A stretch of 36,343 nt of DNA, from the NCBI GenBank assembly GCA_026126245.1, contig JAHCJT010000009.1:1-36343 (forward strand), written 5' to 3'. This stretch comes from Alphaproteobacteria bacterium (GTDB taxonomy: Bacteria; Pseudomonadota; Alphaproteobacteria; Reyranellales; Reyranellaceae). The notes under the pieces were generated by a model, which was given only the letters and a program-made list of their open reading frames with translations, made no database searches and was not told the DNA's origin. This document shows, piece by piece, positions 1-3,961 of this stretch. Both the position numbers and the translations under genes were made by a program. Every line of letters starts with the position of its first letter. Position 1 is the stretch's first letter.

Positions 1-164
1 CCGCCCAGGGCATCGCGCAGGATACGCGCCTCCTCGAGCCGGCGCCGGCAATCGGGGCAATGTGGCAGCGCTTGCTCGACCGCGGCGGCGACATCGGCGG
101 ACAGCTCGCCGTCGACATAGGCGTCGATCAGCGAGGCGCAGGTCGGGCAGTCGATATCGGCCAT
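1..164 (-). CDS. Anti-sigma factor with zinc-finger motif, N-terminal part
   Basis: Only the first 54 codons are inside the window; the gene runs off the left edge. The visible protein has Cys6 and Cys9, the segment LIDAYVDGEL, then His35-Cys36-x2-Cys39. This resembles the zinc-binding anti-sigma (ZAS) domain that holds an ECF sigma factor inactive, though the His-to-Cys spacing is not the textbook Hx3Cx2C. The ATG lies 5 bases after the stop of the sigma gene, and its ribosome site (GAGGAG) overlaps the end of that gene, so the two are co-transcribed and probably translationally coupled. Inference: it binds the neighbouring sigma factor. A membrane segment cannot be judged because the C-terminus is missing. 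Confidence 0.8.
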   Translation of the reverse strand, partial: MADIDCPTCASLIDAYVDGELSADVAAAVEQALPHCPDCRRRLEEARILRDALG

Positions 165-169
165 CGTCG

Positions 170-718
170 TCACTCCTCGCACGTCCGCCGGCGGACCTCG
201 GCCGCCAGCGCCGCGCGCGCCCGCGCCAGTCGCGACATTACGGTGCCGATCGGCAGGTCGAGCATGGTCGCGATGCGCTTGTAGGAAAGCTCCTCGATCT
301 CGCGCAGCACCAGGATCTCGCGCGCCGCCACGGGCAGAGCCGCCAGCGCCGCGGCGATCGTGTGCCGTGCGTCAGCCGCCAGTAGTGCGCGCTCCGGCGT
401 CACGGGAATGGCGGCCAGCGCCTCGGTTCCGGCCAGCGCACCATCGATCTCGCCGTCCGCATCGTCGAGGGAGGCTGACGGTGCCTCGCGCGACCGCCGC
501 GCCGACAGAAATGTGTTGCGCACGATGCTCAGCAGCCAGGGCCGTGCATCCTCGCCGCGGAAACCGTCGAAGTAGCGCCATGCCCGCAGGAACGCCTCCT
601 GCGTGACATCCTGGGCCTCGCTGCTATCGCGCGTCAGGTGGCAGGCATAGCCATAAGCGGCGTCGAGGTGCGGCAACGCCTTCTCGGCGAAACGCCGGGC
701 GCGGGCAGCATCAGTCAT
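170..718 (-). CDS. ECF-type RNA polymerase sigma factor
   Basis: A protein of 182 residues in the size range of extracytoplasmic-function sigma factors. Region 2 runs from about residue 15 to 75 and includes TQEAFLRAWRYFDGFRG, the core-binding and -10 recognition part. Region 4 covers the last 60 residues, with LPVAAREILVLREIEELSY and the helix-turn-helix YKRIATMLDLPIGTVMSRL. An alternative ATG at 736 would add six residues; I prefer 718 because the candidate promoter ends so close to 736 that a start there would leave almost no leader. The anti-sigma gene follows directly. The divergent partners are a Tat phosphoesterase and a cupredoxin, and the same promoter motif stands before both units, so self-activation plus control of those two genes is likely. 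Confidence 0.9.
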   Translation of the reverse strand: MTDAARARRFAEKALPHLDAAYGYACHLTRDSSEAQDVTQEAFLRAWRYFDGFRGEDARPWLLSIVRNTFLSARRSREAPSASLDDADGEIDGALAGTEALAAIPVTPERALLAADARHTIAAALAALPVAAREILVLREIEELSYKRIATMLDLPIGTVMSRLARARAALAAEVRRRTCEE

Positions 719-742
719 CGGGGAGCCATCGAACATCGACTC

Positions 743-771
743 CAATACTGGCCCGCGACCGATCTTATTCC
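743..771 (-). promoter_or_regulatory. Candidate ECF promoter of the sigma/anti-sigma operon
   Basis: Read on the minus strand this is GGAATAA, 15 bases, then AGTATTG. The -35-like GGAATA and -10-like GTAT elements have the spacing of an ECF promoter and end a few bases before the ATG at 736 and 25 bases before the preferred start at 718. The same pattern occurs on the other strand 16 bases further right. Function is inferred from the match and from position. Confidence 0.55.
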
Positions 772-786
772 GCGCCAACCGCGGCC

Positions 787-815
787 GGAATATCCGGCGT
801 CCGGGCCCGGTATCG
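787..815 (+). promoter_or_regulatory. Candidate ECF promoter of the phosphoesterase/cupredoxin operon
   Basis: GGAATAT, 15 bases, then GGTATCG, 38 bases before the ATG of the phosphoesterase. It shares GGAATAW-N15-RGTATYG with the minus-strand motif at 743-771. Two copies, one facing each gene set, suggest that the ECF sigma factor transcribes both. Confidence 0.55.
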
Positions 816-852
816 CCCATATCGCCCCAGTTGCGGGGCGCCAGGAGGGCAG

Positions 853-1740
853 ATGACCGCAAGCCATGATCGCCGCGACTTCCTCAAACTGGCCGGCGTT
901 GCCGGCGTAGCGTTCGCGTCGGGACTGTTCGCCGGCCGCGACGGCGCGTCGGCGCAGGACGGCGACTTTCATTTCGTGCAGTTCTCCGACACGCACTGGG
1001 GCTACAGCGGGCCGGCCAACCCCGATGCTGCGCACACGCTGGAAAAGGCGATAGCGACGGTCAACGGACTTTCAGCGCAGCCTGACTTCGTCGTGTTTAC
1101 AGGTGACCTCACACACACCACGGACGACCCCAAGGAACGCCGCTCGCGGCTGGCGCGCTTCAAGGAGATCGTCGCGGCGTTGCGCGTCAAGGACGTGCGT
1201 TTCATGCCCGGCGAGCACGACGCGTCGCTCGACCGCGGCGAAGCCTACAGGGAATTCTTTGGCGCGACCCACTACACGTTCGATCACAAGGGTGTGCATT
1301 TCATCGCCCTGGACAACGTTTCCGATCCGGCGGCGAAGGTAGGTGACGAGCAACTCGCGTGGCTGGCCGCCGATCTGAGGCAGCGCAAGCCCGACGACCG
1401 CATCGTGGTGATGACGCACCGGCCGCTGTTCGATCTCTATCCGCAGTGGGACTGGGCAACGGCCGACGGCGCCAAGGTGATGGACTTGCTGATGCCATTC
1501 CGCAACGTCGAGGTGTTCTACGGCCACATCCACCAGTCGCATCACCACACGACCGGTCACATCGCGCACCACGCGGCGCGGTCACTGGTCTTTCCGTTGC
1601 CGGCGCCAGGCTCGCAGCCCAAGCGGACGCCGTTGGCATGGGACGCTGCCATTCCCTATCGTGGTCTGGGATCGCGCGACATCGGCGTCACTGCGCCATC
1701 TGACTACAGGCTGGTGGATCTGCCGGTCGCCAAGGCCTGA
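853..1740 (+). CDS. Tat-exported calcineurin-like metallophosphoesterase
   Basis: 295 residues. The N-terminus carries a twin-arginine signal (RRDFLK at 7-12, then a hydrophobic stretch to about residue 28 and an Ala-rich cleavage region), so the folded enzyme is exported to the periplasm. The two-metal phosphoesterase motifs appear in order: Asp46-x-His48 (SDTHW), Gly-Asp85 (FTGDLT), Gly-Glu-His-Asp at 120-123, His189 (THRP) and Gly-His-Ile-His at 224-227. The third motif is normally GNHD; here the metal-bridging Asn is Glu. A run of histidines (QSHHHTTGHIAHH) follows the last motif. The ribosome site AGGAGG is 5 bases before the ATG. The cupredoxin gene starts 2 bases after the stop. The substrate is not evident; a phosphomonoester or diester is typical of the family. 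Confidence 0.88.
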   Translation: MTASHDRRDFLKLAGVAGVAFASGLFAGRDGASAQDGDFHFVQFSDTHWGYSGPANPDAAHTLEKAIATVNGLSAQPDFVVFTGDLTHTTDDPKERRSRLARFKEIVAALRVKDVRFMPGEHDASLDRGEAYREFFGATHYTFDHKGVHFIALDNVSDPAAKVGDEQLAWLAADLRQRKPDDRIVVMTHRPLFDLYPQWDWATADGAKVMDLLMPFRNVEVFYGHIHQSHHHTTGHIAHHAARSLVFPLPAPGSQPKRTPLAWDAAIPYRGLGSRDIGVTAPSDYRLVDLPVAKA

Positions 1741-1742
1741 CG

Positions 1743-2108
1743 ATGACAAGCCGCAGAACCACGCTGCGATGGCTGATCGCGGCGCCGGCGGTCGCTGGCC
1801 TGGCGGCCGCCGGTTTCGCAGCGGAGCCGCCAGTGCGCGAAATCCGCATCACGGCCCGGCGCTTCGAGTACACGCCCGCGAGCATCACGGCGCGGCGGGG
1901 CGAGACCGTTGACCTGCTGCTGACCTCGGAAGACCGCATCCACGGCTTCAAGATGCCAGACTTCAACCTGCGCGCCGACATCTTGCCGGGCCAGATCACG
2001 ACCGTGCGACTGATGCTGGATCGGACCGGCTCGTTCGCGTTCTTTTGCGATGTCTTCTGCGGCGACGGACATGAGGAAATGGGCGGCACGATCCTGGTCG
2101 AGGCATGA
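1743..2108 (+). CDS. Exported CuA-like cupredoxin
   Basis: 121 residues with an N-terminal export signal (RR at 4-5, hydrophobic to about 26), then a beta-rich cupredoxin domain. The copper ligands match the binuclear CuA pattern of cytochrome oxidase subunit II and nitrous-oxide reductase: His67, then Cys102-x3-Cys106-x3-His110-x2-Met113. Unlike those proteins it has no oxidase helices and no catalytic domain, so it is probably a soluble periplasmic electron carrier or copper-handling protein. It begins 2 bases after the phosphoesterase stop, in one operon with it. The link to the ECF sigma factor suggests induction by envelope, copper or redox stress, which is inference. Confidence 0.85.
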   Translation: MTSRRTTLRWLIAAPAVAGLAAAGFAAEPPVREIRITARRFEYTPASITARRGETVDLLLTSEDRIHGFKMPDFNLRADILPGQITTVRLMLDRTGSFAFFCDVFCGDGHEEMGGTILVEA

Positions 2109-3126: not shown

Positions 3127-3471
3127 CTACAGCAGCTTGCGCAGGATGTGCCGGCGGTTGCTGGTGTGGGGCCTGACCTGGCTTGCCCAGCGGCCAGCTT
3201 CGACGGCATCCTGCCACGCCTTGCCCAGCAGGATGTCGGGGCTGTCCAGTTCGTAGATCGCGGTGTAGGCCGGCTCGCCGTCGCCGGTCAGCGGCTTCTT
3301 CTCGCCGCCGATCATCACCGCCGCAGGCTCCGTCTTGGCGCGCGTCACGCCATGCACGCCGGGCACCTTGCGGATGAAGCCGATGTGTTCATCGTAGACC
3401 TCGTTGAACAGGGCTTCTTTGTCGGGTGTCACGTCCATCGAGACGATGAACAGATATTTTCCCGTCGCCAT
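3127..3471 (-). CDS. Small dimeric-fold protein, paralogue B of a tandem pair
   Basis: 114 residues, start ATGGCGACGGG giving MATGKYLFIVSMDV. It looks like a ferredoxin-like alpha/beta barrel protein of the EthD/Dabb/DUF4286 kind: an opening beta-strand, VTPDKEALFNEVYDEHIGFI as helix, then a strand with YTAIYELDSPDIL. No catalytic residues can be assigned. It is 82 percent identical (93 of 114, counted by eye) to the next upstream gene and has the same length, so the pair is a recent tandem duplication. A NIPSNAP-family gene of similar fold lies just beyond, on the same strand. Likely roles in such families are isomerisation or degradation of small aromatic or polyketide-like compounds, but the substrate is unknown. 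Confidence 0.75.
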   Translation of the reverse strand: MATGKYLFIVSMDVTPDKEALFNEVYDEHIGFIRKVPGVHGVTRAKTEPAAVMIGGEKKPLTGDGEPAYTAIYELDSPDILLGKAWQDAVEAGRWASQVRPHTSNRRHILRKLL

Positions 3472-3616
3472 CGCCACCCTCCATGCTGTTGACCGACATC
3501 GCGCATCGTCATGACGGCCCGGCCACATGACGTGCCGGTGACGAGGGTGGCGCCCGCCGCGCCATCGCGCAACAGCAGCGCGACGGCGGCAGCGCGCACC
3601 GGTGCCGGACGCGGCG

Positions 3617-3961
3617 TCACAGCACCTTGCGCAGGATGTGCCGGCGGTTGTTGGTGTGAGGTCGCACCTCGCTCGCCCAGCGGCCGGCTTCGCCGGCCTC
3701 GTGCCACGCCTGGCTGGTCAGGATGTCAGGACTGTCCAGCTCATAGATCGCGACATAGGCCGGTTCGCCGGCGCCGGTCAGCGGCTTCATCTCGCCGCCG
3801 ATCATGACGGCGGCGGATTCGGTCTTGGCGCGCATCACGCTGCGCACGCCCGGCACCTTGCCTAGGAAACCGATGTGCTCCGCATAGACCTCGTTGAACA
3901 GCGCCTCCTTGTCGGGCGCCACGTCCATCGACACGATGAACAGGTACTTTCCGGCAGCCAT
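3617..3961 (-). CDS. Small dimeric-fold protein, paralogue A of a tandem pair
   Basis: 114 residues, beginning MAAGKYLFIVSMDV. It is collinear with the gene at 3127-3471 without gaps and differs at 21 positions. The differences cluster in LTSQAWHEAGEAG (residues about 80-92), which is LGKAWQDAVEAG-like in the partner, so this segment may set specificity. The 145-base spacer between the paralogues is not conserved and shows no gene. It lies 31 bases downstream of the NIPSNAP gene, which suggests one leftward operon of three small proteins. Function not recognised beyond fold similarity. Confidence 0.75.
   Translation of the reverse strand: MAAGKYLFIVSMDVAPDKEALFNEVYAEHIGFLGKVPGVRSVMRAKTESAAVMIGGEMKPLTGAGEPAYVAIYELDSPDILTSQAWHEAGEAGRWASEVRPHTNNRRHILRKVL

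Follow-up and report, generated by a model that had tools for sequence, protein, structure and literature searches.

The window, i.e. the whole stretch of 36,343 nt that was analysed, is one entire contig from a 4.98 Mb draft assembly. Pfam and profile matches revealed that positions 1-2108 code for four genes, encoding an anti-sigma factor, an ECF sigma factor, a metallophosphoesterase-fold protein (MPE) and a cupredoxin. The sigma and anti-sigma genes are located on the minus strand, while the MPE gene and, 2 bases after it, the cupredoxin gene are located on the plus strand; the contig edge truncates the anti-sigma gene at base 1. All four genes of the compact divergent locus proposed in an earlier, sequence-only reading are thus present and were correctly typed; the truncation at the contig edge, the divergent promoters and a Glu-for-Asn replacement in the MPE had been missed. 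The locus comprises the following features:

3-164, minus strand: anti-sigma factor, N-terminal zf-HC2 domain only (Pfam zf-HC2 PF13490, 5e-9)
170-718, minus strand: ECF sigma factor, its start lying at 718 or, alternatively, at 736 (Sigma70_r2 and r4; sigma70-ECF TIGR02937 above cutoff)
746-771 (read 771-746), minus strand: sigma-ward promoter GGAATA-N17-GTA (from the sequence; kept in 52 of 62 divergent named loci)
787-812, plus strand: MPE-ward promoter GGAATA-N17-GTA (from the sequence; kept in 57 of 62 divergent named loci)
843-849, plus strand: ribosome-binding site AGGAGGG, 5' of the MPE gene (from the sequence)
853-1740, plus strand: Tat-exported MPE of the GEHD family (PF00149, 2e-14; AF2 model; Tat signal RRDFLKL)
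1213-1215, plus strand: codon of Glu121, replacing the metal-ligand Asn, N97 of Rv0805 (alignments with homologues, GpdQ and Rv0805)
1743-2108, plus strand: exported single-domain CuA cupredoxin (COX2/Cupredoxin_1, 8e-10; alignment to Thermus CuA, 2cua/2lln)

A gene-neighbourhood search, which the earlier reading had proposed as a check, demonstrated conserved linkage far above chance. Among 101 genomes, namely that of the window and its relatives, the MPE gene adjoins the cupredoxin gene in all 24 loci with strong cupredoxin matches (E < 1e-30), and the sigma gene is visible at the border of the short fetched stretch in most of them. When 80 named loci and the window were compared, a CuA cupredoxin was recognized by profile in 78 of the 81 MPE loci and a sigma gene in 76, divergently oriented in 62 and in line in 14. 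The named loci were picked by likeness to the MPE alignment; a fairer sample, drawn evenly from 299 genomes across the phylum, yielded ten new MPE matches (at 1e-30 or better), all of them with the GEHD motif and a cupredoxin neighbour, and nine with a sigma gene. The linkage was seen in Reyranellaceae, Betaproteobacteria, Acidobacteria and Nitrospirae, and the module occurs across many bacterial phyla. Neighbourhood comparison identified no further conserved gene families around the unit, beyond a leuB-type synteny among Reyranella-like genomes and, in five loci, a class I cytochrome c. The association of the GEHD motif with a carrier gene forms one clade with a single origin and by itself therefore counts as one event; only the carrier replacements recur.

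The sigma and MPE genes of the window are separated by a region carrying GGAATA-N17-GTA on each strand. Both promoters are present in 52 of the 62 divergent named loci, with a motif density of 2.38 per kb-strand versus 0.094 in the remainder of the same loci (about 25 times the background) and a spacer of exactly 17 in 112 of 115 promoter matches. They are retained in most loci with MPEs only 35-44% identical. Together with the conserved linkage, these paired promoters strongly support the earlier view that the genes form a single unit under an ECF switch of their own. A stricter motif, GGAATAN15-16GGTA, has a single match in the own assembly of approximately 5 Mb, located 5' of the MPE gene, and motif matches elsewhere in genomes of the family were near the control level; a wider regulon was therefore rejected, and the sigma factor most likely serves this one locus.

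The promoters of the window match the consensus GGAATA and GT of the Sinorhizobium meliloti ECF26 sigma factors (PMC6180224), and its sigma factor is only 33% identical to RpoE6, the comparison with ECF26 as a group covering these two features. In S. meliloti, RpoE4 controls an enzyme, a cytochrome and a pseudoazurin in response to sulfite (PMC3511301). This RpoE4-SorT-SorU-Azu2 system (ECF26; PMC3511301, PMC6180224) resembles the locus of the window, in that an ECF/anti-sigma pair drives both its own operon and an enzyme-carrier operon including a cupredoxin; since it is built in the same style, an enzyme and a carrier under an ECF switch are plausible here. The enzymes themselves differ, being a sulfite dehydrogenase in S. 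meliloti and an MPE-fold protein in the window. A further difference is that EcfR6 is without the HTVKPW domain. No description of an MPE and cupredoxin pair with an ECF sigma factor was found in open-licence papers, and the paper on Bradyrhizobium EcfF/EcfQ mentions neither phosphoesterase nor copper. A link to sulfur metabolism, suggested by the ECF26 sulfite response and by a Rhizobiaceae locus near SoxYZ with a SoxA-type cytochrome, was not adopted, since sulfur genes do not recur around the other loci. In the two Rhizobiaceae plasmids L072 and L068, a divergent GEHD MPE gene is followed by one for a SoxA/TsdA-type cytochrome, and SoxYZ and SCO genes are found close by in L068.

The zf-HC2 domain of the anti-sigma factor scores 36.4 bits (cutoff of 22.2). 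The canonical H-x3-C-x2-C of ZAS factors is incomplete, with Ala in place of the His both in the window and in rows L073-L078 of the 30-sequence alignment A3, which are of the near Reyranella type; many other rows of A3 retain the His. In relatives, the anti-sigma factor continues past the point corresponding to the contig end of the window with a transmembrane helix and an RseB-like periplasmic domain, as in the full-length gene L073:4583-5338. Structural modelling likened the N-terminal anti-sigma domain to RslA and the periplasmic part to RseB/MucB, the latter with a weak match (E 7e-4, TM 0.27). The predicted fold would be shared with the RseB/MucB envelope-stress sensors, although the domain would here form part of the anti-sigma protein itself. 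Such a weak match points toward a possible signal from the envelope rather than from copper.

The MPE scores 55.0 bits against PF00149 (curated cutoff of 21.5), and the nearest PDB folds of its AF2 model, which is of moderate confidence (pLDDT 76.5), are GpdQ (3d03) and Rv0805 (2hy1), with 17-20% identity in the fold match; some purple acid phosphatases were also matched by profile. A Tat-type RRxF motif is present in 44 of 46 aligned sequences. The GNH[D/E] motif is absent, and all aligned family members possess GEHD instead: Glu121 aligns with a metal ligand, the Asn in the GNHD motifs of GpdQ and Rv0805, and does not vary among 46 close homologues or among 21 diverse ones, whose identity falls to 34%. 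Residues D46, H48, D85, H122, H189, H225 and H227 are likewise invariant, so that all classical catalytic residues are kept except the Asn. The MPE of the window therefore shares its fold and its metal-site residues, except one, with GpdQ and Rv0805, from which it also differs in its Tat export and in the adjoining carrier gene and ECF unit. Since the remaining metal-site residues are intact, the protein should bind two metals, in a predicted dinuclear site of two Asp, one Glu and four His with one carboxylate more than usual. Given the replacement of Asn by Glu at a metal ligand, ordinary phosphoesterase activity is uncertain, and the substitution may alter the chemistry of the site. The Asn is kept in 19 other MPEs from the same search, and none of these 19 GNHD controls has a cupredoxin, sigma or anti-sigma gene as neighbour.

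The CuA ligands listed in the earlier reading (H67, C102, C106, H110 and M113) were borne out as a complete set at these positions, all aligning with those of the Thermus CuA domain (2cua, 2lln). In contrast to this domain and to CoxB, the cupredoxin of the window is a single exported domain whose gene has no oxidase genes beside it, and its score of 60.5 bits is below the curated CoxB cutoff of 147.7. In 41 of 80 CuA homologues, mostly betaproteobacterial (e.g. L087:3614-3985), ligand position 67 is Met and not His, a natural alteration of the copper site. Moreover, the cupredoxin is replaced by a HiPIP in Methylotenera (L091), by a cytochrome c' in Enhydrobacter (L077) and by a SoxA/TsdA-type cytochrome in Rhizobium (L072), while amicyanin-type cupredoxins partner the MPE in L037 and L042 and a class I cytochrome c is added in some betaproteobacterial loci. 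A natural fusion of the MPE with an amicyanin domain was found once, in Gemmatirosa (L070). In a quick MPE tree, whose weakly supported forks are not to be relied on, the HiPIP and cytochrome c' loci are nested inside the CuA clade, and their carriers are hence regarded as replacements. Since carrier types swap within one class, the conserved trait of the MPE partner is electron carrying and not copper. The link between redox state and a putative phosphoesterase envisaged in the sequence-only reading gains support in its direction from the carrier exchange and the fusion, whereas copper is not supported as the common factor or as the signal, with HiPIP and cytochromes, which are iron proteins, in the place of the cupredoxin and approximately half of the CuA relatives having Met for His67.

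The locus probably represents an autoregulated envelope module, in which an ECF switch governs a periplasmic MPE-fold enzyme exchanging electrons with a one-electron carrier. The membrane anti-sigma factor, through its RseB/MucB-like periplasmic domain, would respond to an envelope-derived signal and otherwise sequester the ECF sigma factor; once released, the latter would drive both the operon to which it belongs and the facing operon for MPE and carrier, using the twin divergent GGAATA-N17-GTA promoters. The periplasmic products would be an enzyme of the GpdQ/Rv0805 fold, whose metal site is predicted to be dinuclear, and a small one-electron carrier, in this case CuA. We infer that this carrier moves electrons to or from a redox-active metal site of the enzyme, coupling the MPE to the respiratory chain; the order of genes in Rhizobium L072 (MPE, cytochrome, then oxidase-like genes in a row) is consistent with electron transfer. 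The exchange of carriers within one class and the natural fusion, both hard to explain otherwise, argue for a functional tie between the MPE and the carrier.

As a more tentative extension, the GEHD family could be an MPE fold turned periplasmic oxidoreductase, the Glu rendering the dinuclear site, perhaps one of iron, redox-active and the small carrier of each lineage serving for the electrons. A parallel is provided by the HD-domain phosphohydrolase fold, from which the oxygenases MIOX and PhnZ arose. In several phyla, members of the family bear the annotation 'metallophosphoesterase' and are taken for ordinary hydrolases; should they cooperate with electron carriers, an entire annotated family is misassigned and one hydrolase fold includes a redox branch. 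The MPE and its carrier are two small soluble proteins, and as an ECF switch the module is compact, with two predicted promoters.

Less likely is that the MPE is still a phosphoesterase, acting on a cyclic nucleotide, a glycerophosphodiester or a lipid headgroup, and that the carrier switches hydrolysis on or off by oxidizing or reducing an Fe-containing site. Purple acid phosphatase, active only when half-reduced, would be the model for such an enzyme, which is a sub-case of electron exchange and overlaps with the module proposed above. The invariance of all classical residues bar the Asn, the hydrolases found as closest folds and the profile matches to some purple acid phosphatases agree with gated hydrolysis; the invariant Glu in place of Asn, unlike in the matched hydrolases, and the existence of related MPEs that keep the Asn and lack a carrier speak against it.

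An operon partnership can also reflect shared regulation without contact, and an ECF regulon can bring together several functions of the envelope. That the sigma factor merely turns on a phosphoesterase and an unrelated carrier in one stress response would agree with the two GEHD loci (L036/L178 and L063) near whose MPE no carrier gene was found; L155, the closest relative of L063, does have one. Such independent outputs are nevertheless unlikely, since carrier exchange within one functional class and the fusion would be difficult to account for unless the two proteins were functionally connected. Delivery of copper by the cupredoxin, with the MPE or an oxidase as recipient and the unit as a copper-homeostasis system, is still less likely: the CuA and amicyanin-type partners do belong to copper-binding families and loci are present in Cupriavidus, but HiPIP and cytochromes occupy the place of the cupredoxin, Met replaces His67 in many CuA homologues, and copper transport genes are not conserved around the loci in the neighbourhood comparison. 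Electron exchange between the MPE-fold enzyme and its carrier is the preferred reading.

Two further plasmid loci differ in their gene content. In a Mycobacteroides plasmid (L064), genes for a molybdopterin-dependent oxidoreductase, an epimerase, an RNA polymerase sigma factor, a Rieske protein, a cupredoxin and a GEHD MPE are arranged in line. A Janthinobacterium plasmid (L066) harbours genes for a sigma factor, a c-type cytochrome and a CuA cupredoxin together, with no MPE matched within 12 kb. Elsewhere in the window, positions 3127-3528 and 3617-3961 of the minus strand contain two similar tandem small ORFs (MA..GKYLFIVSMDV...), apparently a duplicated small-protein gene.
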